NCBI RefSeq assembly: GCF_022815645.1
Contig: NZ_JALGRO010000007.1
Location: 1 to 64,000 of the forward strand
Direction of reading: 5' to 3'
DNA from: Curtobacterium sp. VKM Ac-2922
GTDB lineage: Bacteria > Actinomycetota > Actinomycetes > Actinomycetales > Microbacteriaceae
DNA length: 64,000 nt
This document shows, piece after piece, positions 38,850-53,151 of this stretch. The position numbers were made by a program, and so were the translations under genes. A model generated the notes under the pieces. The model made no database searches, was not told where the DNA came from, and was given only the letters and a program-made list of their open reading frames with translations. Position 1 is the stretch's first letter. The number at the start of each line of letters is the position of its first letter.

Positions 38850-39314
38850 TCAGCTGCAGAGCGACGAGTAGGCGTCGATGGCCGACTGCGCCCGAGCGCC
38901 GGCCTGCGCGAACGCCGGGTCGTCCAGCCCCGACACACCGCGCAGGGTCTCGGCTGCGGCCGTCCACTCGTCCTCGACGGTCTGCACGGCAGCATGGACC
39001 TGGTCGTTCGTGACGTCTGCGTTGGCCGAGCGCAGCTCGCCGACGAACGCGGTCAGCCGGTCGGCCATCGCACTCGGCTCGGTGGGTCGCCCACTCGCGG
39101 TCAGGGTGTCGGTCGCCTGTGCGATGTCCGACTCGACGCTCGCGCACGCCTCGGCGGTCGTCTGCGCCGGTGTGCTCGACTCCGCCGGCGCGGTCGCCCG
39201 GGTCGTGCCCGACGCGGACGGTGCATCCGCGGACGACGCTGCGTCGCCGCCGGAACACCCGGACAGCAGGGCGACGGCGAGCAGTGCGGTGGTGATGGTC
39301 AGGGTCTTCTGCAT
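38850..39314 (-). CDS. small secreted lipoprotein
   Basis: A 154-aa protein with a classical lipoprotein signal (MQKTLTITTALLAVALLSGC, Cys at 20) followed by a Ser/Thr/Ala-rich linker and a helical acidic domain (about 55-154) with one more Cys near the end. No known domain. A GGGGGAG ribosome-binding site precedes the ATG at 39314. Confidence 0.8.
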   Translation of the reverse strand: MQKTLTITTALLAVALLSGCSGGDAASSADAPSASGTTRATAPAESSTPAQTTAEACASVESDIAQATDTLTASGRPTEPSAMADRLTAFVGELRSANADVTNDQVHAAVQTVEDEWTAAAETLRGVSGLDDPAFAQAGARAQSAIDAYSSLCS

Positions 39315-39405
39315 GGTCTCCCCCAGGTTCGGTGCAGCAGTACCCCAGGAACGGTACACATGCACGGACGGACAGCGTGCGTCGCGGGTGACGAACGCAG
39401 GCGCG

Positions 39406-39411
39406 TAGCGT
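39406..39411 (+). promoter_or_regulatory. -10 element of a probable leaderless promoter
   Basis: TAGCGT followed by six bases and the ATG at 39418; transcription should begin at the start codon. Confidence 0.45.
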
Positions 39412-39417
39412 CGAGGG

Positions 39418-40395
39418 ATGCACGCCATCACCTTCGACGCCCCCGGCGACGAGCACGTCCTGACCCTCTCCGAGCTTCCCGACCCCACGCCCGCCGACGG
39501 CGAGGTCCTGGTCGAGGTCGCCGCCGCCGGCGTCAACAACGCCGACCTGCAGCAGCGCCAGGGGCACTACCCGCCGCCGCCCGGCGCGTCGGACGCCCTC
39601 GGCCTCGAGGTGTCCGGCACGATCCGGGCGCTCGGCCCGGGCGTCACGGGCTGGGCCGTCGGCGACCGGGTCTGCGCCCTGCTCGCCGGTGGCGGGTACG
39701 CCTCGATGGCCGTCGTCCCCGCGTCGCAGCTGCTGCCCGTGCCCGACGGGCTCGACCTGGTGCAGGTCGCGGCGCTGCCCGAAGCCGCCTGCACGGTGTA
39801 CTCGAACATCGGCATGATCGCCGGGCTGCGCCCCGGGCAGACGCTGCTGGTGCACGGCGGCACGGGCGGCATGGGCTCGCACGCCGTGCTGTGGGCGAAG
39901 GCCCTCGGCGCGCGCGTCATCGCGACGTCGGGTGGGGAGCGCAAGGTCGCCGCGTCCCGCGAGCTCGGCGCGGACCTGGTGATCGACCACCGCACCGAGG
40001 ACTTCGTCGCCCGCGCCCGGGAGTTCACCGACGGCGCCGGGGTCGACGTCGTGCTCGACGTGGTCGGGCCGGCGTACCTGCAGCGGAACCTCGAGGTGCT
40101 CGCGAAGAACGGGCACCTGGCCGTCATCGCAGCGGGCAGCGGCTCCGAGGCCACGCTGCCCTTCGGCCTGATGATGCAGCAGCGCGCGACCATCAGCGGT
40201 ACGACCCTGCGCGCGCGTCCCCTTGCGGAGAAGGCCGCGATCGTCGCTGCCGTCCGCCAGCACGTCTGGCCCTTCGTCGAGGACGGCAGCGTCCACCCGG
40301 TGGTCGACGCGGTGCTGCCGCTCGCCCAGGCGGGCGACGCGCACCGGCGGATCGCGAGTGGTGACGTGATCGGCAAGCTGCTGCTGACGCCGTAG
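39418..40395 (+). CDS. zinc-independent quinone oxidoreductase (QOR-type MDR)
   Basis: A 325-aa medium-chain dehydrogenase/reductase: AAAGVNNADLQQRQGHYPPPPGASDALGLEVSG and the NADPH fold LLVHGGTGGMGSHAVLWAKALGA. Zinc-binding Cys/His residues are missing, which is typical of NAD(P)H:quinone oxidoreductases and enoyl reductases. Probably a detoxifying one-electron-avoiding reductase. TAGCGT six bases before the ATG suggests a leaderless transcript. Confidence 0.9.
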   Translation: MHAITFDAPGDEHVLTLSELPDPTPADGEVLVEVAAAGVNNADLQQRQGHYPPPPGASDALGLEVSGTIRALGPGVTGWAVGDRVCALLAGGGYASMAVVPASQLLPVPDGLDLVQVAALPEAACTVYSNIGMIAGLRPGQTLLVHGGTGGMGSHAVLWAKALGARVIATSGGERKVAASRELGADLVIDHRTEDFVARAREFTDGAGVDVVLDVVGPAYLQRNLEVLAKNGHLAVIAAGSGSEATLPFGLMMQQRATISGTTLRARPLAEKAAIVAAVRQHVWPFVEDGSVHPVVDAVLPLAQAGDAHRRIASGDVIGKLLLTP

Positions 40396-40405
40396 TCCGC
40401 ACGGT

Positions 40406-40450
40406 CTGGAGGCCCGGGGCCGGTCCGTCGGGCCGGCACCAGGCCTCCAG
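40406..40450 (+). terminator. hairpin after the quinone oxidoreductase gene
   Basis: ctggaggcc (40406-40414) / ggcctccag (40442-40450) with further G/C pairing inside, 11 bp after the stop. Confidence 0.6.
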
Positions 40451-40475
40451 GCGGTCGCGTCGCGCCCCGGTGCGG

Positions 40476-40507
40476 ACATCGCGCCCCTGCCTGCGCGGGC
40501 GCGACGT
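40476..40507. repeat. inverted repeat C of the convergent-junction family
   Basis: acatcgcgccc (40476-40486) / gggcgcgacgt (40497-40507), one mismatch, between the convergent QOR and ABC ATPase genes. Read on the minus strand, the flank GCACCCC is also shared with copies A and B. Confidence 0.7.
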
Positions 40508-40520
40508 GCGCGCCGGGGTG

Positions 40521-41267
40521 CTACGCGCCGACGCGCGCCAGGAACTCGACCAGCGCCGGGTGCTGCGGGGCGTCGAGCACCGCGGACGGCGGTCCCTGCT
40601 CGACGACCTCGCCGCGGTGCAGGAAGACGATGCGGTCGGCGACGTTCCGCGCGAACTGCATCTCGTGCGTCGTCATCAGGATCGTCGAGCCCTGCTGCCG
40701 CAGCTCGCGCACCAGGTCGAGGACCTCGCCGACGAGCATCGGGTCGAGTGCACTCGTGACCTCGTCGAGCAGCAGCAGCTCGGGGTCGGACGCGATCGCC
40801 CGCACGATCGCCACGCGCTGCTGCTGCCCGCCGGACAGCCGGTCCGGGTACGCGCCCGCGAAGTCGCCCAGACCGATCCGGTCGAGCAGTCGTCGGGCGG
40901 TCGTCTCGGCGGCGGCGCGGCGGACGCCGTGCACCCGGCGCGACGCGAGCGTGACGTTGTCGAGCACGGTCATGTGCGGGAACAGGTTGAACTGCTGGAA
41001 CACGACGCCGATGCGGGCGCGGGTGGCGTCGACGTCGACCCGGGGGTCCGACACGTCGATGCCCTGCAGCAGGACCTGGCCGTCGTCGATGCCCTCGAGC
41101 AGGTTCACGGTCTTGAGCAGCGTCGACTTGCCCGAGCCCGAGGCGCCGATCACGCAGATCACCTGGTGGCGCTCGAGCGTCAGGTCGATGCCGCGCAGCA
41201 CCTGGTGCTCGCCGAACGCCTTGCGGAGTCCCCGGAGTTCGAGCACGGGGACGGTCCCGGTGGTCAT
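40521..41267 (-). CDS. polar amino acid ABC transporter ATP-binding protein
   Basis: A 248-aa ATPase of the GlnQ/HisP type: Walker A GASGSGKST, Q-loop QQFNLFPHMT, signature LSGGQQQR, Walker B LLLLDEVTSALD and H-loop TTHEM. Powers import with the permease encoded just upstream; its ATG overlaps the permease stop (ATGA). The substrate class is amino acids or amino-acid-like compounds; the exact ligand is unknown. Confidence 0.93.
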   Translation of the reverse strand: MTTGTVPVLELRGLRKAFGEHQVLRGIDLTLERHQVICVIGASGSGKSTLLKTVNLLEGIDDGQVLLQGIDVSDPRVDVDATRARIGVVFQQFNLFPHMTVLDNVTLASRRVHGVRRAAAETTARRLLDRIGLGDFAGAYPDRLSGGQQQRVAIVRAIASDPELLLLDEVTSALDPMLVGEVLDLVRELRQQGSTILMTTHEMQFARNVADRIVFLHRGEVVEQGPPSAVLDAPQHPALVEFLARVGA

Positions 41268-42124
41268 ACGGTGCCGCCGATCTGTTCGCGACGCTGCTGG
41301 CGCCGGGCGATGGCGTCCGTGACGCGGATGAGCGGCAGGCTGATCACGACGAACAGCAGGCCGGCCACCAGGTACGGGGTGAAGTTGTAGGTCTCGGCCT
41401 GGGCGATCTGCGCACTCCGGACCGCGTCGACCGCGCCGAGGATCGACACCAGACCGACGTCCTTCTGCATCGAGACGAAGTCGTTCATGAGCGCGGGCGT
41501 GACCTTGCGGACGGCCTGCGGCAGGACGACCAGCCGCAGCGTCTGGGTGTGGGACAGGCCGAGGGACCGGGCGGCCAGGCGCTGGGAGGGGTGGACGGCC
41601 TCCATGCCGGCGCGCAGCACCTCGGCCACGTACGACGAGTACGTCAGCACGATCGCGATCGTGCCCCAGAACTCCGGCGCCAGCCGGGGGAAGACCCCCA
41701 GGCCCGGCAGCCCGAAGCCGACCAGGTACAGCACGATGATCAGGGGCAGACCGCGGAACAGGTCGGTGTACCCGGTGGCGAGCATCCGCAGCGGGAAGAA
41801 CACCGGGCTCTGCAGACCGCGCACGACTGCCAGCAGCGTGCCGAACACCGCGACGCCGATGGCTGCGAAGAACAGGATCCGGACGTTCAGCCACAGCCCG
41901 AGCAGGATCTCCGGGAACGTCGAGGCGGCGACACCCGGGTCGAAGAACGACTGCTGGACTGCGGCCCAACCGGGGGTGTTCACGACGCCGAAGTACACGA
42001 CCGCCGCCACGACCAGTGTCGACGCGACCGAGGCCAGGACCGCCCGGCGGCCTCGCTGGCGACGGTAGATCCGGCGCTCGAGCTCTACCGGGCTGGGCGG
42101 GACCGGTGCCGACGCGTCGGTCAC
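41264..42124 (-). CDS. amino acid ABC transporter permease
   Basis: A 286-aa HisM-type permease with about five spans and the EAA loop EAVHPSQRLAARSLGLSHTQTLRLVVLPQAVRKVTPAL that docks the ATPase. The GTG at 42124 follows a tandem array of AGGAGC hexamers that could provide several ribosome-binding sites. It overlaps the ATPase gene by 4 nt. Confidence 0.92.
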   Translation of the reverse strand: MTDASAPVPPSPVELERRIYRRQRGRRAVLASVASTLVVAAVVYFGVVNTPGWAAVQQSFFDPGVAASTFPEILLGLWLNVRILFFAAIGVAVFGTLLAVVRGLQSPVFFPLRMLATGYTDLFRGLPLIIVLYLVGFGLPGLGVFPRLAPEFWGTIAIVLTYSSYVAEVLRAGMEAVHPSQRLAARSLGLSHTQTLRLVVLPQAVRKVTPALMNDFVSMQKDVGLVSILGAVDAVRSAQIAQAETYNFTPYLVAGLLFVVISLPLIRVTDAIARRQQRREQIGGTV

Positions 42125-42128
42125 GGGC

Positions 42129-42172
<44 letters not shown>

Positions 42173-42189
42173 GGGGACGGACACGCGCG

Positions 42190-43011
42190 CTACTTCAGGA
42201 CCGGGGTGTTCGTCGCGGACGACAGCCACTGCTTCTGCAGCGCCGCGAGCGTGCCGTCGTCGTCGAGCGCCTTCAGGGCCTTGTCGACCTTGGCGGTCAG
42301 GGCCGAGTCCTTCGGCAGCACGAAGCCGAACTGGTCGCCCTTTCCGTCGGCGGGGAACTGCGCCGAGACCGCGCCGTCGTCGAGCTGCGCGCCGGACATG
42401 GTGAAAGCGGTCGGTAGGTCGGTGACGATCGCGTCGATCTGGCCGGACTTGAGCGCCAGCACCGCGTCGTCGTTCGAGTTGAAGACCTGCGGGGTGACGC
42501 CGAGCACCTGCTTGACGCTGGCGATGCTCGTCGACCCGGCGGCCACCCCGATGGTGTCCTGCTTGAGCGCGGCGACGGTGGTGTCGTCCTTCGCCTTGGA
42601 CTTGGCGGTCGTCACGACGGCCTGCGTGGTCGTGTAGTACGGCGACGACATGTCCACGGCCTTCTTGCGCTGGGACGAGATCGAGAACTGCTGCAGGTTG
42701 AGGTCCCAGTCCTTCGGGCCCGGAGCCACCGCGCTGTCGAAGGTGCTGCGCTTCCACACCACGTCGGACTTCGCGTAGCCCATCTGCTTCGCGACGGCGT
42801 AGGCCACGGCGGACTCGAAGCCCTTGCCGGACTGCGGCTTGTTGTCCTCGACCCAGGGCGAGTACGCGGGCTGCCCGGTCGCGATCGTGAGCTTGCCGTC
42901 GGTGACGGTGCCGTCCGAGCCCGTGCTGCCGCCGGCCGAGCAGGCGGTGAGCGCGAGGGCAGCGACGACGGTGGTCGCGAGGGCGAGGGAGAGACGGAAC
43001 GATCGAGTCAC
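42190..43011 (-). CDS. amino acid ABC transporter substrate-binding lipoprotein
   Basis: A 273-aa SBP_bac_3 protein. Signal MTRSFRLSLALATTVVAALALTAC with lipobox LTAC, then GKLTIATGQPAYSPWVEDN and later DAIVTDLPTAF typical of cluster F amino-acid binding proteins. Ligand unknown. The GTG start at 43011 has a TACAAT -10 about 40 bp upstream. Its gene begins the transporter unit and follows the cupin gene by 152 bp. Confidence 0.91.
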   Translation of the reverse strand: MTRSFRLSLALATTVVAALALTACSAGGSTGSDGTVTDGKLTIATGQPAYSPWVEDNKPQSGKGFESAVAYAVAKQMGYAKSDVVWKRSTFDSAVAPGPKDWDLNLQQFSISSQRKKAVDMSSPYYTTTQAVVTTAKSKAKDDTTVAALKQDTIGVAAGSTSIASVKQVLGVTPQVFNSNDDAVLALKSGQIDAIVTDLPTAFTMSGAQLDDGAVSAQFPADGKGDQFGFVLPKDSALTAKVDKALKALDDDGTLAALQKQWLSSATNTPVLK

Positions 43012-43050
43012 GGTCGGGCCTTCGTGCTGGGGGCGTGGGGGCAAGGACGA

Positions 43051-43056
43051 ATTGTA
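43051..43056 (-). promoter_or_regulatory. -10 element upstream of the ABC transporter genes
   Basis: The minus strand reads TACAAT (extended by GG upstream), about 39 bp before the binding-protein GTG. No clear -35 at 17-18 bp. Confidence 0.45.
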
Positions 43057-43163
43057 CCGGCAGGTGGGATACCAGCACGTGTCGGGCGTCGCGCGACGTC
43101 GCACACGGGCGTGGTCGAGGGGCGGCGGGGGCTGCGGGGGCGGGCGCGAGGGCACCCGGGCGC

Positions 43164-43640
43164 TCAGGCCAGGGTGAAGTCCTCGAACGAGAAGCCGGGC
43201 GACACCAGGCAGCTCAGCAGCACCTCGCCGTCGCCGGGGAGCGTGCGCTGCCAGACCCCGCCGCGTACGAACGCCTGCGCGTCGTTCACCCGGTCGCGCC
43301 CGGCGTCCGGCCCGAGGGTGATCGTCGCGCCCGGCTCCGGGGACTCCCCCGACCCGCCGAGCTGCAGGTCGACGGTGTCCGGCCCGTGCCACATCCAGAC
43401 CTCGTCGCTCGTGACCCGGTGCCACGCCGATGCCTCGCCCGGGGGCAGCAGGAAGTGGATGAGTGTCGCCGCGGGCCGCTCGCCACCGCGCACCTGCACC
43501 GTCGCGGGCGAGGTCCAGGTGCGGACGTACCAGCCGCCCTCGGGGTGGGGTTCCATGCCGAGCGCTGCTGCCCGCTTCGGGACGTCGAGCCACTCGATGA
43601 GCTCGCCGTCGACCGTCCGTCGCGCCATCTGTCCGTTCAT
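43164..43640 (-). CDS. DUF985-type cupin protein
   Basis: A 158-aa cupin: LGMEPHPEGGWYVRTW is the family N-terminal signature, followed by cupin motifs FLLPPGEASAWHRVTSDEVWMWHGPD and a C-terminal VSPGFSFEDF. The family includes proteins of unknown activity. It lies 36 bp after the deaminase-like gene on the same strand and is probably the last gene of that operon. Confidence 0.85.
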   Translation of the reverse strand: MNGQMARRTVDGELIEWLDVPKRAAALGMEPHPEGGWYVRTWTSPATVQVRGGERPAATLIHFLLPPGEASAWHRVTSDEVWMWHGPDTVDLQLGGSGESPEPGATITLGPDAGRDRVNDAQAFVRGGVWQRTLPGDGEVLLSCLVSPGFSFEDFTLA

Positions 43641-43676
43641 CCGACCATCATCCCGCGCGGACGGCCTGGTCTGCGA

Positions 43677-44969
43677 TCACCGGGCGACCAGCACGCCGTC
43701 CTGGGCGCGGACCCGCCCGCGCACCACCGTCGCGACGGCCCGCCCGGCACCGTCCTCGACGAGTTCGGCGAGCGCGTCGGGCACGGTCCGCGCGTCGACG
43801 TCGAACACGGCCAGGTCTGCCCGGGCCCCGACGGCCAGGTGCCCGATCCGGTCCGGGCCCACCGCCAGCCCCATCGCGTGCGCTCCGCCGAGCGTCGCCG
43901 CCGCCAGCAGCCGCTCGTGCAGGTCGTGGTCGCCGTATCCCTGCGCGCGGGCGATCCGGTGCAGCGCGGTGACGTCGGCCATCAGGTCGAGCGACGGGGA
44001 CGAGGACAGTGAGTCCGTGCCGATCGCGACGGGGCTGCCTTCGCGCAGGTAGTCGGCGACGGGTGGCGGGTCGAGTCCGATGACGGCGTTCGAGCGTGGG
44101 CAGAGCGCGACCGCGGTCCCCCGGGCACGCAGCAGCGCGCGGTCGGCGGCCGTCATGTAGACGCCGTGCGCGATGTGGCAGTCCGGCCCGAGCACGCCGA
44201 GCCGGTCGACGAACGAGGTCGCGCTCGCGCCGAACCCGAGCGCGCGCATGGCCCGGAACGACGGCACGTTCGCCAGGTGCCAGTCGGTGCCGTGCTCGAG
44301 CGACGAAGCCAGTCGTTCGCCCTCGAAGGCGGCCTCGCCGAGGTGCAGGTGCAGCCGCAGGCCACGCTGGCGGACGATGTCCGGCAGCTCGAGCAGCGGG
44401 GCGACGTCGAGGGAGTACGGCGCGTGCGGGGACAGGCCGGCGCCGGGGCTGGTCGGGATGCGCGCGAGCTCGTCGAGCACCTGGTCGCGCCCGTGTTCCT
44501 GCCACGCCGCGTTCTCCCAGTCCATCACCTCCCAGTAGGCGATCCCGCCCAGACCGGCGTCCTGCAGGGCCGTCGCTGCCTCGATGTCGGTGACGATGTC
44601 CGCGATGCTCGTCACCCCGGCGGCGATCGACTGCGCGGCGCCGGCCGCCGCCTCGGCGCGCCAGTCGTGCTCGCCCGCGTAGACGTCGTTGAACGCGCTG
44701 GCCCAGTCTTCGAATCCCCCGTACTGGCCGCGCCCGACACTGGCCATGCCGGTGTACTGCAGGTGCGAGTGCGCGTTCACGAGCCCGGGCAGCAGCGCCC
44801 CACGCCAGCGTCGTTCGGTCCACGTCGAGCCGTCCAGCTGGTCGACGACCCAAGAGCGCTCGCCGACGTGCAGGATCCGGCCGTCGCGCACCGCCACGGC
44901 GCCGTCGGCAATCGGCGGCGCGGTCATCGGCACGACGATGCGCGCGGAGTGGACGGTCGTCTCGCTCAT
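43677..44969 (-). CDS. TRZ/ATZ-family amidohydrolase, probable nucleoside-type deaminase
   Basis: A 430-aa metal-dependent hydrolase. Metal ligands and catalytic residues are visible: HxH in NAHSHLQ (His67, His69), HLHLGEAAFEGE, AHGVYMT, CPRSNAVIG and the Asp of GTDSLSSSPS. This pattern belongs to S-adenosylhomocysteine/5'-methylthioadenosine/5'-deoxyadenosine deaminases, guanine deaminases and aminofutalosine deaminases. Its ATG overlaps the SAHH-like stop (ATGA), so both proteins are made together; a deaminase for an adenosyl compound is the natural reading, but unproved. Confidence 0.8.
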   Translation of the reverse strand: MSETTVHSARIVVPMTAPPIADGAVAVRDGRILHVGERSWVVDQLDGSTWTERRWRGALLPGLVNAHSHLQYTGMASVGRGQYGGFEDWASAFNDVYAGEHDWRAEAAAGAAQSIAAGVTSIADIVTDIEAATALQDAGLGGIAYWEVMDWENAAWQEHGRDQVLDELARIPTSPGAGLSPHAPYSLDVAPLLELPDIVRQRGLRLHLHLGEAAFEGERLASSLEHGTDWHLANVPSFRAMRALGFGASATSFVDRLGVLGPDCHIAHGVYMTAADRALLRARGTAVALCPRSNAVIGLDPPPVADYLREGSPVAIGTDSLSSSPSLDLMADVTALHRIARAQGYGDHDLHERLLAAATLGGAHAMGLAVGPDRIGHLAVGARADLAVFDVDARTVPDALAELVEDGAGRAVATVVRGRVRAQDGVLVAR

Positions 44970-46669
44970 GCGGGGGCTCCGAAGCGGGTCGTCCGGACGT
45001 CCGGCTGGCGGTCGGCCGGCTGCGCGGCGACCGGGACGGGAGGCTCGGCTCGGCTGCCGAACGCGGCCAGCGCCGCGCGGGCGGTCGCGTCGTCCACCGC
45101 GGGGTCGACGGGCACGACGGCCCGGTCGAGTTCGTCGCCGCGCTCGAGCAGCATCCGGACGGCGCCGAGCTGCACCGCGAACGACAGGTCCATGATCTCG
45201 ATCGGGTTGCCCTCGGCGGCGGTGATGTTGATGCACCCGCCGTCGTCGAGCACCAGGACGCCGTGCTCGGCGCCCGGGAAGGTGAAGCGTTCGGCCTTCC
45301 GTCCCACGACGACCCGCTCGGCGCCCGTCGCGAGCGCGGCGTCGATCGCGATCTCCTGGTCGACCCCGCCCGCGACCGCGACGACCGCATCGGCAGCGCA
45401 GGCGCGGAGCACCTCGACCGTGATGGTGTCCGCGACCCCCGTCGCACTCATCACCAGGTCGGCATCGCGGACGGCCTCGATCAGCGGCGCGACGGCGTGT
45501 CCGGCGAACCGGGCCTGCAGCGCACGCACCGGGTCGGTCTCGGCGACCGTCACATGGAAGCCGAGCGCGCGGAGCACCAGGGCGACCCCCTCGCCGACGT
45601 GCCCGTACCCGACGACGACCGCCGAGCCTCCAGGCCGGACCGTGTGCGTACCGGACGGCAGCGCGTCGACCAGGTCGAGCACCGCGAACACCGTCGACTG
45701 CCCGGTGCCGTACCGGTTGTCGAAGAAGGTCTTGGTGCGGGCGTCGTTCACGGCGACCACGGGGATGCCGAGCTGCCCTCGGTCGGCCAGCACGCGCAGG
45801 GCCGTCAGGCCGCTCGTGGTCTCCTCCGCAGCGCCGACCATCGTCGGCAGCAGGTCCGGGCGTTCCTGGTGGGCGAGTCGGATGACGTGCGCGCCGTCGT
45901 CGAGCAGGACGTGCGGCCGCGTGTCGAGCATCGCGAGCGCCAGGGCCTTCTGCTCGTCCAGCGTGGCGGAGCTGTCGGCGAAGACCGGCAGGCCGGTCCG
46001 GCGCAGCACCGCGGCGACGGCGTCGTCGGTCTCGTCGGCGTGCGCGTAGACGACGACCTCGGCGCCGGCCTCACGCAGCAGCAGGGACAGCACGGCGGTC
46101 TTCGGCTCGAGCACCATCGCGACGCCGATCCGGGTCCCGCGCAGCAGTCCCTGGTCGCGGAGCTCGGCGGCGACCGCACGCGAGACCGGCATCGCGCGGC
46201 GGGCCCAGCGCAGGCGGGCCTCGGCGGCGGGGTCGTCCTCGGGCTCGCGGCCTGTCGACACCAGGGACACGTCGTCCGAGGTCATCGGCACGCCGAGCAC
46301 ACCGGGACGGACGGGGGTGACGGGGCCGAAGGCGTCCTCGTCGACGGCGGGCTGGTGGCGTCCGGCGTCGATGACCACGAGCGTGTGGCCGCGAGGCTGG
46401 TCCGCCGCCGGCACCGCGATCGCGCTCTGCACCGCGGTCGCGCTCTGCTCCGGCGTGCCGAGACACCAGAGGTGGTCGATGCGCTCGTCTGCTGCTGCGG
46501 CACGGGCACCCAGGGCGGTCAGCAGTGCGTCGAGGGCTGCGGCGTCGCGCGGGTCGCCGCCGATGATGCGGAACCGGCGAGCCGCGATGAGCAGGTTGGT
46601 CGTGCGGGCGAGGTGCCGGACGGCCGCCGAGGCCCACGCCAGCGTGTCGGGGTCGGGGCGCATCGGCAT
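44966..46669 (-). CDS. S-adenosylhomocysteine hydrolase homologue with altered active site
   Basis: A 567-aa protein. Residues about 1-150 are an extra domain not found in AdoHcy hydrolase. The rest follows the AdoHcyase fold: EETTSG (282-287), VNDARTKTFFDN (307-318, with the catalytic Lys and Asp) and NAD site VVGYGHVGEG. But aligned on TAVL, the positions of human His55, Thr57 and Glu59 are Val186, Glu188 and Lys190; the GHP histidine is Asn (AEGNP, 485-489), GHFD is GGVD, and the KPDHYRY tail is missing. Substrate is therefore probably not plain AdoHcy. Confidence 0.8.
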   Translation of the reverse strand: MPMRPDPDTLAWASAAVRHLARTTNLLIAARRFRIIGGDPRDAAALDALLTALGARAAAADERIDHLWCLGTPEQSATAVQSAIAVPAADQPRGHTLVVIDAGRHQPAVDEDAFGPVTPVRPGVLGVPMTSDDVSLVSTGREPEDDPAAEARLRWARRAMPVSRAVAAELRDQGLLRGTRIGVAMVLEPKTAVLSLLLREAGAEVVVYAHADETDDAVAAVLRRTGLPVFADSSATLDEQKALALAMLDTRPHVLLDDGAHVIRLAHQERPDLLPTMVGAAEETTSGLTALRVLADRGQLGIPVVAVNDARTKTFFDNRYGTGQSTVFAVLDLVDALPSGTHTVRPGGSAVVVGYGHVGEGVALVLRALGFHVTVAETDPVRALQARFAGHAVAPLIEAVRDADLVMSATGVADTITVEVLRACAADAVVAVAGGVDQEIAIDAALATGAERVVVGRKAERFTFPGAEHGVLVLDDGGCINITAAEGNPIEIMDLSFAVQLGAVRMLLERGDELDRAVVPVDPAVDDATARAALAAFGSRAEPPVPVAAQPADRQPDVRTTRFGAPA

Positions 46670-46689
46670 GGGTCCAGCGTAGGGGCGCG

Positions 46690-47637
46690 TCAGCGCAGCG
46701 CGTGGGGCGGCGGTGCGTCGTACCAGCCCGGCACCCGGGGCTGCGGGGACGCGGCTCGGGCCCGTCGGCGGAAGTGCACCTGCACGCCGATGAGCACCGC
46801 GACGCCGATCGCCGACACGACGGCGAGTCCGACCAGGTAGAGCGTCGTGACCAGCCCGGCGACCGAGGACGGCACGACACCGTTCTGCGCGGCGGACAGC
46901 GGGGTGCCGGTCAGGACGAACGCCAGCACGGTCGAGATCGTGGAGTTCGAGTCGTACAGCGCGTGCAGCACCGACACCGCCACGTAGGTCACCGGCACGG
47001 CCCAGGTCCAGCGGAAGCGCGGTCGGCCGTGTGCGACGCCGAACAGCACCGCCCCCAGGATCGCGGTCCACAGCACGTGTCCCACGGGCGACAGGATCGC
47101 GCGGAGCACCTCGGTCTGCAGCAGCGACGCCAGGTCGATCCCGCGCGTGGTGATCGCGGCGTTGAAGGCGTAGCCCGCCGACTCGAACGCGGCGAACCCG
47201 GCCCCCACCGTCGCACCGAGCAGCGCACCCTGCCGCGCGGTCTTCGGCTGGACGCGCCACCCGACCACGACGAGCAGCACGCCCTTCACGAGTTCCTCGG
47301 CCAGACCCACCGCCAGGTACACCAGCGCGCCCTGCCGCAGGTTCGACTCGAGCAGCGACGCCCCGAGCACGCCGAGGATCCCGCCGACGAAGAACGCCGT
47401 GACGAGCTGCATCGTGCTCACGGTGCCGGTCACCCGCTCGATGACGAAGAGCACGACCGTGAACGGCACGAGGAAGCTGCCGAGCAGGATGATCGTCGGC
47501 ACGAGGTTGGTGTTGCTCGTGTACACGGTGACGACGATCGTGACGACCCACAGCGCGAACCCGACCAGCAGGGTCTTCCACCACCAGCCGTGGCGGTGGT
47601 GCGGGTGGTCCACGGGGACGTCGGCGATCGTGCTCAT
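46690..47637 (-). CDS. PrsW-family intramembrane metalloprotease
   Basis: A 315-aa polytopic protein with about eight spans. Family motifs: EExxK in GLAEELVKG, FExxxY in AAFESAGYAF, His in LSPVGHVLWT and LHALYDS. PrsW cleaves anti-sigma factors in Bacillus; the substrate here is unknown and no sigma/anti-sigma pair is nearby. Start ATG at 47637. It is the first gene of the SAHH-like operon (20-bp gap to the next). Confidence 0.88.
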   Translation of the reverse strand: MSTIADVPVDHPHHRHGWWWKTLLVGFALWVVTIVVTVYTSNTNLVPTIILLGSFLVPFTVVLFVIERVTGTVSTMQLVTAFFVGGILGVLGASLLESNLRQGALVYLAVGLAEELVKGVLLVVVGWRVQPKTARQGALLGATVGAGFAAFESAGYAFNAAITTRGIDLASLLQTEVLRAILSPVGHVLWTAILGAVLFGVAHGRPRFRWTWAVPVTYVAVSVLHALYDSNSTISTVLAFVLTGTPLSAAQNGVVPSSVAGLVTTLYLVGLAVVSAIGVAVLIGVQVHFRRRARAASPQPRVPGWYDAPPPHALR

Positions 47638-47707
47638 GCACCCAGGATGCTCGCCGGTGCGGCCGCTGTTCCGAGCCGGGACGGGAATGTCCTGGTGGTG
47701 TCCGACG

Positions 47708-47713
47708 TACTCT
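47708..47713 (+). promoter_or_regulatory. -10 element of a probable leaderless glutaredoxin promoter
   Basis: TACTCT, six bases before the ATG at 47720, with no Shine-Dalgarno between them. Confidence 0.4.
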
Positions 47714-47719
47714 CTCAGC

Positions 47720-47983
47720 ATGACCGACACGACGTTCGACCAGGTGACCATGTTCGGCGCTGACTGGTGCCGCGACTGCCGGCGCTCGAAGGCGCTGCTC
47801 GACGGGCTCGGGATCGACTACACGTACGTCGACGTCGAGCAGGACCTGTCGGCGGCCGAGCGTGCCGAGGCGATCAGCGGGCGCAAGAACATCCCCGTCG
47901 TGGTGCTGCCGAACGGCAAGCACTTCGTGGAGCCCTCGGACGCCGAGCTGCGTGCCGAGCTCGAGGCGTCCGGCATCGTCTGA
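47720..47983 (+). CDS. glutaredoxin-like protein (mycoredoxin type)
   Basis: An 87-aa thioredoxin-fold protein with the redox motif WCRDC (CxxC, residues about 17-20) and cis-Pro region NIPVVVLPNGKHFVEPS. The pattern WCxxCRRSKALLD is that of mycoredoxin, which reduces mycothiol-protein mixed disulfides in actinobacteria. TACTCT lies six bases before the ATG (47720) with no Shine-Dalgarno, suggesting a leaderless mRNA. Confidence 0.9.
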   Translation: MTDTTFDQVTMFGADWCRDCRRSKALLDGLGIDYTYVDVEQDLSAAERAEAISGRKNIPVVVLPNGKHFVEPSDAELRAELEASGIV

Positions 47984-48020
47984 GCCGGGCGCTGCGCGCG
48001 CTGATCGGCCCGCACCCGGG

Positions 48021-48037
48021 CAGACGTCGGATGGGTC
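48021..48037 (+). promoter_or_regulatory. candidate fucose operator, site 3 (half-conserved)
   Basis: CAGACGTCGGATGGGTC matches the left half and centre of the dyad at 48901-48919 but has a degenerate right half. It lies 15 bp upstream of the lactonase GTG. Confidence 0.4.
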
Positions 48038-48052
48038 CGGCATGATGGCGGC

Positions 48053-48910
48053 GTGATCCTCGACGCGCACCACCACCTCTGGGACCCCGCCGACCGCGAC
48101 TACGCCTGGTTGGACGACTCCGTCGCGCCCATCCGCCGCCGGTTCGACGTGGACGACCTGCGAGCAGCCGTCGACGGCACCGACGTGCAGGCCACGATCG
48201 CCGTGCAGGCCGTGCACGACCCCGCCGAGACCGCGTGGTTGCTGTCGCGGCCCGCCCCCGTGGCCGGCGTCGTCGGATGGGTCGACCTGACCGCGCCGGA
48301 CGTCGTCGAGCAGCTGGCGGCGCTGGTCGACCTGGAACGACCTGGTGGCCCGCGCCTGGTCGGCATCCGGCACCTGGCGCACGACGAGCCCGACCGCGAC
48401 TGGCTCGCCCGCGACGACGTGATCGCCGGGGTGCGGGTCCTCGCCGCTGCCGGCATGCCGTTCGACCTGCTGGTCCGCGACCGCGAACACGCCGCAGCGG
48501 TGACCCTGGTCGACGCGGTCCCCGACGGCGTCTTCGTCCTCGACCACGCCGGCAAGCCCGACATCGCGCACGACGACACCGACGTGCGCATCGCGTGGCG
48601 TGCCCGGATGGACGACCTGGCTGCGCGTCCCAACGTGCTGTGCAAGGTCTCCGGCCTGGTGACCGAAGCGGGTGCGGACTGGCGCGACCGGCCCGTCGCC
48701 CACTACGCCCGCCAGGTGGTCGAGGCCTTCGGCCCGGACCGCTCGCTGTTCGGGTCGGACTGGCCGGTCTCGACCCTGCAGGGCGAGTACGCCGAGGTGC
48801 TCCGCACGGCGTCCGACGCACTGGCGGACCTGTCGGACGACGAACGCGACGCCGTCTTCCACCGGACGGCCGAGCGGGTCTACCTTGCCGCGGTCCCACC
48901 GCAGACATAG
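48053..48910 (+). CDS. L-fuconolactonase-type amidohydrolase
   Basis: A 285-aa Amidohydro_2 TIM-barrel hydrolase: MILDAHHHLWDP (HxH), LVGIRHLAHDEPD, FVLDHAGKPDI and LFGSDWPVSTL. This COG3618 family contains L-fucono-1,5-lactonases and 2-pyrone-4,6-dicarboxylate hydrolases; the fucose context selects the former. The stop lies inside the palindromic operator of the next promoter. GTG start with a CATGAT -10-like hexamer six bases ahead, perhaps leaderless. Confidence 0.85.
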   Translation: MILDAHHHLWDPADRDYAWLDDSVAPIRRRFDVDDLRAAVDGTDVQATIAVQAVHDPAETAWLLSRPAPVAGVVGWVDLTAPDVVEQLAALVDLERPGGPRLVGIRHLAHDEPDRDWLARDDVIAGVRVLAAAGMPFDLLVRDREHAAAVTLVDAVPDGVFVLDHAGKPDIAHDDTDVRIAWRARMDDLAARPNVLCKVSGLVTEAGADWRDRPVAHYARQVVEAFGPDRSLFGSDWPVSTLQGEYAEVLRTASDALADLSDDERDAVFHRTAERVYLAAVPPQT

Positions 48911-48913
48911 GAT
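48885..48913 (+). promoter_or_regulatory. promoter of the FAH-SDR-regulator genes
   Basis: TTGCCG (48885-48890) and TAGGAT (48908-48913) separated by 17 bp; the -10 lies inside the operator dyad, so the bound regulator would block RNA polymerase. Confidence 0.65.
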
Positions 48914-48919
48914 GTCTGC
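48901..48919 (+). promoter_or_regulatory. fucose operator, site 1
   Basis: GCAGACATAGGATGTCTGC is a perfect 8-bp dyad around AGG. It overlaps the stop codon of the lactonase gene and the -10 of the promoter for the next genes. The same core lies in the dehydratase promoter. Confidence 0.75.
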
Positions 48920-48992
48920 GCGGTCACGGCGACCGCGCAGCGGCTGAACGGTCGCATGCGCTGCGACGCAGCAGCGCGGAGAGCGAGGAACG

Positions 48993-49841
48993 ATGCGGTT
49001 CGCACGACTCGGCCCGGCCGGTGGGGAGATCCCCGTGGCCATCGATGCCGACGGTCGGACACACGACCTCAGACCGGTCACCACCGACATCGACGGCGGT
49101 TTCCTGGCGGACGACCCGGTCGGCCGCGTGCAGCGGGCACTCGATGCCGGCGAGCTGTCCGTCCTGCCCGACGCCGACACCCTGCGCCGCGGCGCCCCCG
49201 TCGTCCGTCCCGGCAAAGTCGTCTGCATCGGCCTGAACTACCGCGACCACGCTGCCGAGACCGGCGCGGACATCCCGACCGAGCCGATCGTGTTCATGAA
49301 GGACCCGATGACGGTGATCGGCCCCGACGACCAGGTGCTGGTCCCCCGCAAGAGCACGAAGACCGACTGGGAGATCGAGCTCGCCATCGTGATCGGCTCG
49401 ACCGCCCGCTACTGCGAGTCCGAGGACGAGGCCGCCACGCACATCGCCGGCTACACCATCGCGAACGACGTCTCCGAGCGGGAGTTCCAGATCGAGCGCG
49501 GCGGGCAGTGGGACAAGGGCAAGTCCTGCGAGACGTTCAACCCCCTGGGTCCGTGGCTGGTCACCGCCGACGCCATCGAACCGGCAGCGCTCGCACTGCG
49601 TCTGACCGTCAACGGCGAGGTGCGCCAGGACGGCTCCACCGCCGACATGATCTTCCGCCCCGCCGAGATCGTGCACTACCTGTCGCAGTTCATGGTCCTG
49701 TACCCGGGCGACGTCATCAGCACCGGCACTCCCGCTGGTGTCGCGCTCGGCAGTGGCGCCCCGTACCTGCAGCCCGGCGACGTCGTCGAGCTCACCGCGG
49801 ACGGCCTGGGGTCCCAGCGCCAGACGATGGGTGCCGCCTGA
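48993..49841 (+). CDS. fumarylacetoacetate hydrolase family protein, probable 2,4-diketo-3-deoxy-L-fuconate hydrolase
   Basis: A 282-aa FAH-fold enzyme with CIGLNYRDHAAETG, the metal-binding E-x-E of WEIELAIVIG and Asp of ANDVSEREFQ, and the C-terminal YPGDVISTGTPAGV. In the non-phosphorylating L-fucose route this enzyme cleaves 2,4-diketo-3-deoxy-L-fuconate to pyruvate and lactate. Stop and next start overlap (TGATG). Controlled by the promoter/operator at 48885-48919. Confidence 0.9.
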   Translation: MRFARLGPAGGEIPVAIDADGRTHDLRPVTTDIDGGFLADDPVGRVQRALDAGELSVLPDADTLRRGAPVVRPGKVVCIGLNYRDHAAETGADIPTEPIVFMKDPMTVIGPDDQVLVPRKSTKTDWEIELAIVIGSTARYCESEDEAATHIAGYTIANDVSEREFQIERGGQWDKGKSCETFNPLGPWLVTADAIEPAALALRLTVNGEVRQDGSTADMIFRPAEIVHYLSQFMVLYPGDVISTGTPAGVALGSGAPYLQPGDVVELTADGLGSQRQTMGAA

Positions 49842-50632
49842 TGGCCGCCGCACCGTCCACGCCCACCACCGCGGCCACGCCCGCGGTGCCGGGTCAGTCC
49901 CACCACGGCCTGCGCGCCGTCGTCACCGGCGGCGCCTCCGGCATCGGCGCCGCGATCGCCGTCGCCCTGCGTGACCGTGGGGCGACCGTCGCCGTCCTCG
50001 ACCTGCGGCCCTCGGCCGACTTACCGTCCTTCACGTGCGACGTCAGCGACGACGCCTCGGTCCGTGCGGCCGTGGCAGCAGCCGCCGACGCCCTGGGCGG
50101 GATCGACGTCCTGGTGAACAACGCCGGCATCGGCGCCCAGGGCACCGTCGAGGACAACCCGGACGACGAGTGGCGCCGGGTCTACGAGGTCAACGTGCTC
50201 GGGGCGGTCCGGCTGTCCCGCGCCTGCCTGCCGTTCCTGCGGGAGTCGGGCGCAGCCTCCATCGTGAACACCTGCTCGATCGCCGCGACCGCCGGGCTGC
50301 CCCAGCGCGCGCTGTACTCCGCCACCAAGGGCGCGATCGCCGCGTTGACGCGCGCGATGGCCGCCGACCACCTGCGCGAGGGCATCCGTGTCAACGCGGT
50401 CAACCCGGGCACCGCGGACACCCCGTGGGTCGGCCGGCTGCTCGAGTCCGCCGACGACCCCGCGGCCGAGCGCGCAGCGCTCGAGGCACGGCAGCCGCAC
50501 GGCCGACTCGTCGCCCCGGAAGAGGTCGCCGAGGCCGTCGCATACCTGACGAGCCCCCTGGCCGCGTCGACCACGGGCGTCGACCTGGCCGTCGACGGGG
50601 GGATGCAGGCGCTGCGGCTCCGACCCGCCTGA
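49841..50632 (+). CDS. SDR dehydrogenase, probable 2-keto-3-deoxy-L-fuconate dehydrogenase
   Basis: A 263-aa classical short-chain dehydrogenase: cofactor motif TGGASGIG, NNAG, catalytic Ser and YxxxK in CSIAATAGLPQRALYSATKGA. An Asp-containing DLR after beta-2 suggests NAD. Within the pathway it would oxidise 2-keto-3-deoxy-L-fuconate at C4, feeding the FAH enzyme encoded one base upstream. An L-fucose dehydrogenase role is the alternative, but the AKR at 51884 fits that better. Confidence 0.86.
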   Translation: MAAAPSTPTTAATPAVPGQSHHGLRAVVTGGASGIGAAIAVALRDRGATVAVLDLRPSADLPSFTCDVSDDASVRAAVAAAADALGGIDVLVNNAGIGAQGTVEDNPDDEWRRVYEVNVLGAVRLSRACLPFLRESGAASIVNTCSIAATAGLPQRALYSATKGAIAALTRAMAADHLREGIRVNAVNPGTADTPWVGRLLESADDPAAERAALEARQPHGRLVAPEEVAEAVAYLTSPLAASTTGVDLAVDGGMQALRLRPA

Positions 50633-50714
50633 TGGCCGGCTGCCGCGTCCAGGAGGACCGGTGCGGATATCGTCGTCAGGTCCGGTACCAGCCGGCGCAG
50701 GAAGAGGGCATCGC

Positions 50715-51392
50715 ATGGCTTCGCTGACCGACGACGCGATCGCGCGCATCCAGCAGATGATCGTGTCCGGCGAACTGACGCCCGGGCAGCGGCTGCCGCC
50801 GGAGAAGGAACTGAGCGAGTCGCTCGGGCTGTCGCGGAACAGCCTGCGCGAAGCGGTGAAGGCGCTCGAGCTCATCCGCGTGCTCGACGTCCGGCGCGGC
50901 GACGGCACCTACGTCACGTCGCTCGAACCCTCGGTGCTGCTCGAGGCGGTGTCCTTCGTCGTGGACATGCACCACGACCGATCGCTGGTCGACCTGCTCG
51001 AGGTGCGGCGCATCCTGGAGCCGGCGTCCGCGGTGCTGGCCACGGCGAGGGCATCGGAGCAGCAGATCGACGAGCTCGCGACGCTGATGGCGAGCGTGGA
51101 CGACGCCACCGGGGTCGAGGAACTGGTCGCGCACGACCTGCTCTTCCACTCCACGATCGCGGGCATCGGGGGCAACCAGTACCTGTCCGGGCTGCTCGAC
51201 GCCCTGTCGAGCAAGACCGTGCGCGTGCGGGTGTGGCGCGGGCTGACGCAGAACGGCTCGGTGCAGCGCACGCTCGACGAGCACGCGGCCATCGTCGACG
51301 CGATCCGCCGCCGCGACCCGCAGCTCGTGCAGGCCCTGGTCGTGGCGCACGTCGAGGGTGTCGAGCGGTGGCTCCGGCGGTCGCTCGACTGA
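50715..51392 (+). CDS. FadR-subfamily GntR transcriptional regulator
   Basis: A 225-aa repressor. The N-terminal winged helix (IQQMIVSGELTPGQRLPPEKELSESLGLSRNSLREAVKALELI) is followed by an all-helical FCD ligand domain with the Asp/His metal pocket (HDLLFHSTIAGIGGN, DEHAAIVDAI). It probably binds the CAGACATNGGATGTCTG dyads and responds to a pathway acid such as fuconate or its keto-deoxy product. It lies 82 bp after the SDR gene on the same strand. Confidence 0.9.
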   Translation: MASLTDDAIARIQQMIVSGELTPGQRLPPEKELSESLGLSRNSLREAVKALELIRVLDVRRGDGTYVTSLEPSVLLEAVSFVVDMHHDRSLVDLLEVRRILEPASAVLATARASEQQIDELATLMASVDDATGVEELVAHDLLFHSTIAGIGGNQYLSGLLDALSSKTVRVRVWRGLTQNGSVQRTLDEHAAIVDAIRRRDPQLVQALVVAHVEGVERWLRRSLD

Positions 51393-51505
51393 CGATCGGG
51401 GTACACGCGGTGTGAGCGCGGTCAGCCGCCACCGGGTTCACTCAGGGACTGGCCCGGAGCCGACACCCGTCGGCAGCAATCCGGACGCATCACCAGGAGG
51501 ACACC

Positions 51506-51781
51506 GTGCTCGGTCTCATCGTCAGCTTGATCATCGTCGGACTGATCGCCGGTGCGCTCGCGCGCCTGATCGTCCCCGGGAAGCAGAGCATCTCGATCCT
51601 CATGACCATCGTCCTCGGCATCGTCGGGTCGTTCGTCGGCGGGTTCCTCGGGTTCCTGATCTTCCAGCACGACCCGATGGACGGCTTCTTCCAGCCGGCC
51701 GGCATCATCGGCTCGGTCATCGGCGCCATCATCGTGCTGCTGCTCTACACGCGCTTCGCCGGTCGCGGCGCGCGCAACTAG
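51506..51781 (+). CDS. GlsB/YeaQ/YmgE-family small membrane protein
   Basis: A 91-aa protein with three spans and the family glycine pattern IVGLIAGALARLIVPG...VLGIVGSFVGGFLG...GIIGSVIGAIIVLLLY. Transglycosylase-associated or general-stress membrane proteins of unknown function. GTG start (51506) with an AGGAGG ribosome-binding site. It is unlikely to belong to the fucose pathway. Confidence 0.9.
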   Translation: MLGLIVSLIIVGLIAGALARLIVPGKQSISILMTIVLGIVGSFVGGFLGFLIFQHDPMDGFFQPAGIIGSVIGAIIVLLLYTRFAGRGARN

Positions 51782-51813
51782 GGTTCGCCCCTCGGCGCGG
51801 ATCGCGCCCGCAC

Positions 51814-51853
51814 ACGAACAACGCGCCCCGTCTCGACGGGGCGCGTTGTTCGT
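51814..51853. terminator. 18-bp bidirectional terminator at the junction of the fucose operons
   Basis: A perfect 18-bp stem (51814-51831 / 51836-51853) with loop CTCG, between the GlsB gene and the end of the convergent AKR gene. Confidence 0.88.
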
Positions 51854-51883
51854 TGTGGGGTGCGACGCTCCCCGCGCTGGCGG

Positions 51884-52834
51884 TCAGCTCGCGAGCAGGC
51901 CCTCGGCGCGCAGGTCGTGCCACAGCGCCTCGGGGACCACCGCGGCGGCACGGGCGGCGTTCTCGCGCACCTGGTCCGCCGACTGCGCTCCGACCGCGAC
52001 GGCACGGACGGCCGCCGCACGTCGGGGGAAGGCCAGCGCGGCCTCGGGGAGCGTGACCCCGTGCCGCGCACACACCGCGGCGAGCGCACGGGCCCGGTCC
52101 AGCAGCTCTGCCGGCGCGGGGGCGTAGTCGTACGTGGTGTCCTCGGCGGGCAGCGGACGGCTCAGCAGCCCGGAGTTGTAGACCCCGACCGCGACGACGT
52201 CCACGCCGCGCTCGGCACAGGTGGCGACGAGCCCGGCCGCGGGCTGTTCGAGCAGCGTGTACCGGCCCGCGAGCATCACCACGTCGCACAGCCCCGTGTC
52301 GACCGCTGCCGTCAGTGCGGCGACCGAGTTCGACCCGACGCCGACCGCGCGCACGACGCCCTCGTCCCGCAGTGCGGCGAGCGCCGGCAGCGCCTGGGTC
52401 AGCCCGGCGTGCAGGTCGTACACGTCGGGGTCGTGCAGGTAGGCGACGTCGACGTGGTCGAGCCCGAGCCGCCCGAGGGACTCGTCGAGCGAGCGGCGCA
52501 CTCCGTCGGGGGTCGGGTCCCACCGCCGGACCAGGTCGTTCAGCACCGCGAACCCGTCGTCGTCCGTGCCGTCACCCGGTCCGGGCACCAGCCGACGTCC
52601 GACCTTCGTGGACAGCGCGTAGGCATTCCGGGGCCGGTCGGCGAGCGCCGCGCCGAGGCGCCGCTCGCTCAGCCCGAGGCCGTAGTGCGGGGCCGTGTCG
52701 AAGCCGCGCACGCCGACGTCCCACGCCGCATCGACCGTGGCGCGCGCGTCGTCGTCGGACACCTCGCGCAGCAGGTTCCCGATCCCCGCGCCGCCGAACC
52801 AGAACGGTCCGCGGTCGAACTCGACGTCGCTCAT
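51884..52834 (-). CDS. aldo/keto reductase, probable L-fucose dehydrogenase
   Basis: A 316-aa AKR of the D-threo-aldose 1-dehydrogenase group: FDTAPHYGLGLSERRLG with Asp/Tyr, STKVGR with Lys, YLHDPDVYDL with His. Members oxidise L-fucose, L-galactose and related sugars at C1 to the lactone. It is last in the minus-strand fucose operon; the ATG overlaps the mutarotase stop (ATGA). Lack of any other sugar C1 dehydrogenase in the cluster supports the role. Confidence 0.87.
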   Translation of the reverse strand: MSDVEFDRGPFWFGGAGIGNLLREVSDDDARATVDAAWDVGVRGFDTAPHYGLGLSERRLGAALADRPRNAYALSTKVGRRLVPGPGDGTDDDGFAVLNDLVRRWDPTPDGVRRSLDESLGRLGLDHVDVAYLHDPDVYDLHAGLTQALPALAALRDEGVVRAVGVGSNSVAALTAAVDTGLCDVVMLAGRYTLLEQPAAGLVATCAERGVDVVAVGVYNSGLLSRPLPAEDTTYDYAPAPAELLDRARALAAVCARHGVTLPEAALAFPRRAAAVRAVAVGAQSADQVRENAARAAAVVPEALWHDLRAEGLLAS

Positions 52835-53151
52835 GCCTGCCCTTCGAGCGTCCACACCAGCGGCACGCCGTCGTCGTTCCCCGAGTAGTCGTCGTCGGCC
52901 TCGAGCAGCGGGTTGATCACGGCCTGCCAGTCGGCGTTCACCGGGTCGTCCGCCAACGACCGACGCATGGCACGGTGGTCCTCGACCTCGATCAGGTGGA
53001 TCAGGTCCTGGCCGTCGCGCCAGATGCTCCAGTTCGCCACCCCGGCGGCACGCAGGCGTTCCACCAGGGCGTCCGGGATGGCAGCGTGTGCCTGCTCGTA
53101 GTCGTCCTCGCGCCCGGCCCGCAGGCGGGTGCGCGACAGGATCCGCTGCAT
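52831..53151 (-). CDS. L-rhamnose/L-fucose mutarotase (RhaM-like)
   Basis: A 106-aa ferredoxin-like-fold protein: RTRLRAGREDDYEQAHAAIPDALVERLRAAGVANWSIWRDG and NADWQAVINPLLE. RhaM-type mutarotases interconvert sugar anomers; next to an L-fucosidase and an L-fucose dehydrogenase it probably supplies the anomer the dehydrogenase uses. Start overlaps the fucosidase stop by one base. Confidence 0.9.
   Translation of the reverse strand: MQRILSRTRLRAGREDDYEQAHAAIPDALVERLRAAGVANWSIWRDGQDLIHLIEVEDHRAMRRSLADDPVNADWQAVINPLLEADDDYSGNDDGVPLVWTLEGQA

Follow-up and report, generated by a model that had tools for sequence, protein, structure and literature searches.

What does a homologue of S-adenosylhomocysteine hydrolase (SAHH) do in a bacterium when its gene overlaps that of an amidohydrolase and is followed by an importer? 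The question is raised by the window, the whole stretch of 64,000 nucleotides analysed here, which covers positions 1 to 64,000 (forward strand) of contig NZ_JALGRO010000007.1 from Curtobacterium sp. VKM Ac-2922. We find that the SAHH-like protein, called SAHL below, and the amidohydrolase, a predicted purine nucleoside deaminase, are linked beyond chance and beyond one strain. Importer genes, in which ATP-binding cassette (ABC) and energy-coupling factor (ECF) types are exchangeable, are part of the same module. SAHL keeps the base contacts of SAHH in a hypoxanthine form and has lost the catalytic, gate and third histidines. Judged from sequence, the module may take up and break down a purine nucleoside that carries an amino acid, with S-adenosylhomocysteine (SAH) or a close analogue as the likeliest candidate, a reading that we favour tentatively.

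The genes of the locus are as follows, with profile scores in bits.

46690 to 47637, minus strand: PrsW-family membrane protein (PF13367, 75.5 bits, cut-off 23.5)
44966 to 46669, minus strand: SAHL, 567 amino acids (PF00670, 97.6 bits, cut-off 27; PF05221, 74.4 bits, cut-off 25)
43677 to 44969, minus strand: TRZ/ATZ-type amidohydrolase, the predicted purine nucleoside deaminase, 430 amino acids (PF01979, 126.4 bits, cut-off 25)
43164 to 43640, minus strand: Cupin_5/DUF985 protein, 158 amino acids (PF06172, 125.1 bits, cut-off 25)
42190 to 43011, minus strand: amino-acid-type solute-binding protein, SBP_bac_3, with a GTG start (77.9 bits, cut-off 26.4)
41264 to 42127, minus strand: amino-acid-type ABC permease, its start probably a GTG near 42124
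40521 to 41267, minus strand: amino-acid-type ABC ATPase, nearest to the NCBIfam model GlnQ and under its cut-off

The first four genes lie where an earlier note on this DNA had placed them, in the families that it had named. The overlap of the SAHL stop and the deaminase start as ATGA (44969-44966) is likewise as it had described, and the amino-acid ABC transporter that it had seen downstream on the same strand is complete with binding protein, permease and ATPase. The deaminase stop and the cupin start are 36 bases apart, and 152 bases separate the cupin stop from the start of the ABC importer.

Conservation of the neighbourhood was surveyed at 79 named loci from a GTDB genome scan (the best 80 of 180 stretches), 42 of them in Curtobacterium, with gene presence called by tblastn. 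The scan started from six seed peptides; EGNPIEIM and VDQEIAID among them overlap or flank the Asn and Gly positions reported below. Across 15 named genera in seven families the deaminase gene is always present, downstream of SAHL and on the same strand (79 of 79); the pair is kept across genera, a point that the earlier note had asked to see checked. Cupin_5 accompanies it in 71 loci, the ABC binding protein in 64 and its permease in 63. ECF S and T components are found in nine loci, the S-component never together with the binding protein (0 of 79). Two S-components, compared with solved structures, gave no match at E up to 1. Six loci show neither importer marker; in four of these the stretch ends early (L052, L053, L054 and L059), and L071 and L083 are full stretches. 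The ECF-type loci are ordered SAHL, ECF ATPases, S, T and deaminase, followed by the cupin in five of nine, and in seven of nine a match to a short N-domain protein lies upstream. At one locus, L078 (CP121450.1), SAHL and the deaminase each match in two overlapping pieces, and the genes look broken or misassembled.

The earlier note had also asked whether the cupin and the PrsW gene co-occur with the pair, which the cupin mostly does. PrsW is matched at 34 of the 79 loci, 32 among the 42 from Curtobacterium and two from other Microbacteriaceae, and because the gene is thus confined to Curtobacterium-like loci we regard it as incidental and drop it from the module. The PrsW protein scores 24.7 against the glutamic intramembrane protease model NF033739, under the cut-off of 225, though it passes PF13367.

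The same picture emerges from 199 Microbacteriaceae genomes sampled independently: SAHL is present in 33 and the deaminase in 33, with both in 32, neither in 165, SAHL alone in one (G704) and the deaminase alone in one (G770; Fisher p 1e-34, kinship not corrected for). Where both occur, 31 of the 32 genomes carry them no more than 6 kb apart on a single contig, and 23 no more than 500 bases apart. In one search all 35 same-genus genomes gave an SAHL match of at least 546 bits; a further genome of the genus, G837, has neither gene. SAHL is rare across the class. In a class-wide draw of 394 genomes three genomes give a score of at least 500 bits, all of them Microbacteriaceae, and the other 27 among the matches listed score 355-374; weaker SAHLs could fall under the search threshold. 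Those 27 lower-scoring proteins have the gate His and the GHP His in every case and the catalytic His in 25, the remaining two being gaps.

The residues of SAHL were compared in 81 rows, namely P0001, 77 of the 79 named loci, L141, L142 and L144; L059 and L078, which have no single complete frame, and L143 are left out. The row filter required EETT-, DDG- and GxP-like motifs. According to the consulted part of PMC10978960, the nucleobase motif of archaeal SAHH is HxT(E)xK, in which the His is catalytic, the Glu contacts N1 and the Lys contacts O6, the Lys being present in enzymes that prefer hypoxanthine substrates; SAHH histidines are described there as catalytic or gating. The Glu and Lys of the hypoxanthine-type (H)xExK, E188 and K190, are kept in 81 of 81 SAHL rows, as expected if deamination precedes the SAHL step. 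The earlier note had described a hydrolase that lost its adenine contacts. What is lost instead is the catalytic His (0 of 81; V in 53, F in 21, T in 6 and I in 1), the gate His, which is Gly throughout and followed by V in 76 rows, I in 4 and G in 1 at the place of a His-Phe pair elsewhere, and the His of the GHP motif, which is Asn in all 81. D258, E282, E283, K313, D317, N318 and N481, which include residues of the ribose 3'-oxidation site, are kept in every row, as are the glycines of the NAD motif (G354, G356 and G359). We take the 3'-oxidation residues to be D131, E156, K186, D190 and N191 in human numbering.

A comparison set, in which 46 of 65 loci passed the filter (including the same-place pairs L110/L133 and L108/L135, with most other f34 paralogues dropped), has the GHP His in 46 of 46 rows and the gate His in 40; those that lack it equal in number the six rows of the f34 paralogue, where Pro stands at the catalytic position. 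The f34 genomes carry this second SAHH paralogue with Pro or Ala at the catalytic position and the GHP His kept, and at five of eight loci (L133, L136, L138, L139 and L140) it adjoins an ECF importer with a QueT-family S-component. The SAHL rows themselves form one clade (SH-aLRT 100, in a quick tree of 24 rows with three long branches).

Because the seeds of the named loci covered or adjoined the Asn and Gly sites, residues were recounted as a control for seed bias on 32 SAHLs found by profile across Microbacteriaceae, some apparently the same records as named loci; the window's own row is not among them, and the first SAHH copy of G748 was set aside as not SAHL. The catalytic His is again absent (0 of 32), the gate position is Gly in 32, the GHP position Asn in 31, and Lys190 is present in 32. 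In 31 of these proteins the 13 checked positions are unchanged apart from one P489A. The exception is G704 (L209), the SAHL without a deaminase, in which E188, D258, E282, E283, N318, N481 and N488 have all changed. It seems to be a decaying copy left without its partner, and since the other 31 kept these residues, SAHL and the deaminase seem to work together.

The predicted model of SAHL (mean predicted local distance difference test, pLDDT, 89.9) contains a full SAHH fold at residues 146-554, matched by Thermotoga and Pyrococcus enzymes at Z about 40. Relative to the archaeal/Thermotoga-type adenosylhomocysteinases (3x2e, 3x2f, 7r37 and 7r3a; Z 39.2 to 40.0, the highest being 3x2f over 398 residues), SAHL has the same fold, NAD motif and ribose-site residues at 33-34 percent identity. 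It differs in the replacement of the catalytic His by Val, Phe, Thr or Ile, of the gate His by Gly and of the GHP His by Asn, and in an extra N-terminal domain. Against NCBIfam it scores 340.4 with NF004005 (cut-off 275) but 302.4 with TIGR00936 (cut-off 497.6).

The N-terminal part, residues 1 to about 140, matches the NAD domain of SAHH by profile (56 columns, probability 96.3) and, with shallow profiles, the corresponding domain of the SAHH that comes first in G748 (132 columns, 95.6), and it is predicted to be a degenerate extra SAHH NAD domain. Other loci hold related proteins in the slot before SAHL: a complete HxExK SAHH with all three histidines directly before it in G748, a degenerate copy of 368 amino acids in Rhizohabitans, and a short NAD-domain protein in Rathayibacter, Cryobacterium and some mycobacteria. 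At loci of the amino-acid-importer type the NAD domain is fused to SAHL. We infer from this series that one of two paired SAHHs has decayed, and the direction of the change is part of that inference.

A fold that has lost its histidines might have become a sensor. AHCYL1/IRBIT is an SAHH homologue without the expected hydrolase activity. SAHL could in the same way be a non-catalytic partner that regulates the importer or the deaminase, given the loss of three histidines clade-wide and the degenerate SAHH domain fused to it or adjoining it. We hold this very improbable: the 3'-oxidation residues and NAD glycines kept in all 81 rows are more than a plain sensor seems to need, and the decay affects the partner domain, not SAHL. 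Unlike AHCYL1/IRBIT, SAHL is bacterial, stands in an operon for import and deamination and forms a separate clade. With the catalytic and gate histidines gone, SAHL is probably not running the normal reversible hydrolysis and, as far as its residues tell, probably does chemistry unlike that of textbook SAHH.

From its model (pLDDT 90.9) the deaminase is predicted to act on a purine nucleoside. The top 12 of its fold matches (Z 44.6 to 41.4) are five adenosine deaminases, two TM0936 structures, two aminofutalosine deaminases and three amidohydrolases without a named substrate. Compared with adenosine and methylthioadenosine deaminases, TM0936 and aminofutalosine deaminase (4gbd, 4f0r, 1p1m and 7lkk among them), it has 19-26 percent identity, lies under the NCBIfam cut-offs and carries its own conserved motif, NAH(S/T)HLQ. 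H67, H69, H207, H209, E212, H268 and D319 are present in 78 or 79 of 79 rows, L075 having Tyr at H67. Triazine hydrolases (Z about 40) and guanine deaminases (39.5 and below) follow lower in the fold list. The guanine/8-oxoguanine deaminase class, whose model NF006055 the window's deaminase matches at 118.4 bits (cut-off 532), is said, in the consulted part of PMC12828455, to carry a Gln after beta-strand 1. In the pairwise alignment with 7ww2 this Gln lies opposite Tyr72 of the window's deaminase (P0002), whose Gln71 is one place earlier. Among the families in the fold listing we therefore reject guanine deaminase, with its Z of 39.5 against 44.6 for the best match and without the aligned Gln.

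The pairing of a deaminase with an SAHH relative that has a hypoxanthine-type motif resembles Methanocaldococcus jannaschii, where DadD and S-inosylhomocysteine hydrolase (PMC10978960) form a comparable couple, the first a member of the amidohydrolase superfamily and the second an SAHH homologue with an ExK motif suited to hypoxanthine. The earlier note had suggested a similar two-step route here, or the handling of another adenosyl compound. In such a route the cell's own SAH would be deaminated, and SAHL would act as S-inosylhomocysteine hydrolase in the S-adenosylmethionine (SAM) cycle. The pairing and the ExK motif in 81 of 81 rows bear out the resemblance; Pyrococcus furiosus SAHH with inosine is among the closest solved structures (Z 39.8), and the G748 cluster holds an intact HxExK SAHH. 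In contrast to the M. jannaschii system, SAHL has neither catalytic nor gate His (each 0 of 81), the module includes an importer and usually a cupin, and a standard route for SAH is usually present.

The latter was examined in 26 SAHL genomes, chosen not at random, with canonical AhcY defined as a PF00670 match of at least 240 bits and LuxS as PF02664. Nine have AhcY only, 15 LuxS only, none both and two neither. The window genome (3.73 Mb) also has a canonical AhcY gene (245.4 bits), on a contig other than that of the window. In the two exceptions, G685 (1.4 Mb, locus L177) and G727 (2.9 Mb, locus L181), SAHL and the deaminase are present, with no LuxS match and no canonical AhcY. G770, which has no SAHL, has both AhcY and LuxS. 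SAHL thus follows no single recycling route, and because 24 of the 26 genomes have AhcY or LuxS it is unlikely to be the main or normal route of SAH recycling, except perhaps in G685 and G727, which keep the idea alive there. With importers belonging to the module as well, we consider a role in the SAM cycle improbable.

That importers are conserved in the module suggests a substrate taken up from outside the cell. All 64 binding-protein rows have R115 and D198, at positions aligned with an Arg and an Asp of amino-acid binding proteins that we take to be the alpha-carboxylate and alpha-amino ligands; the ligand is therefore likely to be an alpha-amino acid. SAH is favoured because it combines an amino acid and an adenine nucleoside in one molecule and fits the Met-type importer found in G770. 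There the deaminase, without SAHL, lies in a minus-strand gene run with MetI-, MetN- and MetQ-like genes (153.8 bits, cut-off 212; 295.9, cut-off 499.7; 165.4, cut-off 228.85; PF03180 passed), an FMN monooxygenase of the NtaA/DmoA family (463 bits, cut-off 279.7) and a sugar-type ABC set, a context that hints at a methionine-like, sulfur-containing substrate.

Import and breakdown of a purine nucleoside other than SAH (methylthioadenosine, 5'-deoxyadenosine or a modified tRNA nucleoside, for example) would account for the ECF S-component and the sugar-type ABC genes in the same slot, which fit a nucleoside. The same substrates would suit the LacI-type regulators of L073 and L174, whose best scores, under cut-off, are to ribose repressor models, and recall the His-less f34 paralogue beside its QueT-type importer at five of eight loci. 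Set against the amino-acid-type Arg and Asp in all 64 binding proteins, this seems to us rather unlikely, though it is a rival to be taken seriously. Queuosine salvage, suggested by the QueT-family S-component of the f34 genomes, was considered and rejected as the purpose in the window genome because no tRNA-guanine transglycosylase, needed if queuosine were for tRNA, is found there; the enzyme is present in six of ten genomes searched, and queuosine salvage may still apply to the f34 genomes.

Under the favoured reading, of SAH or a close analogue taken up and dismantled, the ABC system, or its ECF counterpart in some relatives, would bring in a nucleoside released by other cells, and the amidohydrolase would deaminate its base to give a hypoxanthine nucleoside, for example S-inosylhomocysteine. 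SAHL would then bind the deaminated nucleoside through its ExK motif, its bound NAD+ would oxidise the ribose 3'-OH, and the enzyme would either degrade the sugar further or eliminate the 5' thiol by a route that does not depend on the usual His catalysis, leaving an unusual sugar product on which the cupin may act. The substrate, the reaction, the reaction order, the product and the role of the cupin are inferred from gene content, residues and predicted folds. As for the cupin, the Cupin_5 structure 3LZZ is listed with GDP in the consulted part of PMC11594714, and PMC8704077 describes a further member of the family as possibly an isomerase of nucleotide metabolism.

Several observations weigh against this reading. 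The absence of the catalytic His in 81 of 81 rows means that cleavage of S-inosylhomocysteine is not assured. The deaminase is under the cut-off of all 25 NCBIfam families listed (27 matched), scoring 41.4 against the methylthioadenosine/SAH deaminase NF012037 (cut-off 779) and 110.7 against the 5'-deoxyadenosine deaminase NF005557 (cut-off 522), and isocytosine deaminase (Z 41.3) about ties with the last of its 12 best fold matches. The ECF S-component belongs to PF07155, the Pfam family of riboflavin transporters. The sugar-type ABC genes of G748, where they stand between SAHL and the deaminase, and of G770 do not indicate an amino acid, and the Met-type proteins of G770 are under their NCBIfam cut-offs and come from a single genome. 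The cupin is absent from four full-length loci (three from Mycobacteriaceae and one from Rhizohabitans) and gave no tblastn match in L174, L177-L179 or L181.

A bolder proposal, which we regard as doubtful, is that SAHL might be a new NAD+-dependent nucleoside-cleaving enzyme derived from SAHH. It would form a 3'-keto nucleoside and then eliminate the C5' thiol, the C1' base or both, not add water, and the surrounding operon would import SAH-like compounds. The former twin of SAHL, which one genome retains as a complete HxExK hydrolase, would have decayed to a bound NAD-domain subunit.

The surroundings of the module add a few features. No riboswitch of the SAM, SAH or preQ1 families reached the gathering score at the ten loci searched, and window positions 39000-49500 gave microRNA matches only, far under the gathering score. 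In Microbacterium gorillae (L082, 937-1043, plus strand) a thiamine pyrophosphate (TPP) riboswitch lies upstream of transporter genes outside the module. Divergent from the PrsW gene of the window, a small open reading frame (47720-47983, plus strand) has a translation that looks glutaredoxin- or mycoredoxin-like by eye. Genes on both strands at 48053-52855, by eye an amidohydrolase, an FAH-family hydrolase, a short-chain dehydrogenase/reductase, a GntR-type regulator and an aldo/keto reductase, resemble a non-phosphorylative pathway for L-fucose or a similar sugar acid.

Among the papers listed by searches of the open-access literature, subscription journals lying outside them, none was seen to describe this module, and a search of the open PMC library on SAH uptake or transport returned one paper, on Chlamydia. 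Since SAHL passes one NCBIfam equivalog cut-off, automatic annotation may label it adenosylhomocysteinase, and methyl-metabolism models of genomes that rely on LuxS would then be misled. SAHH is a highly conserved enzyme, and a clade that retains the redox half of its active site without the hydrolytic one offers a natural experiment on which portion of the mechanism can work alone; the module would also suggest that bacteria take up an SAH-like compound.

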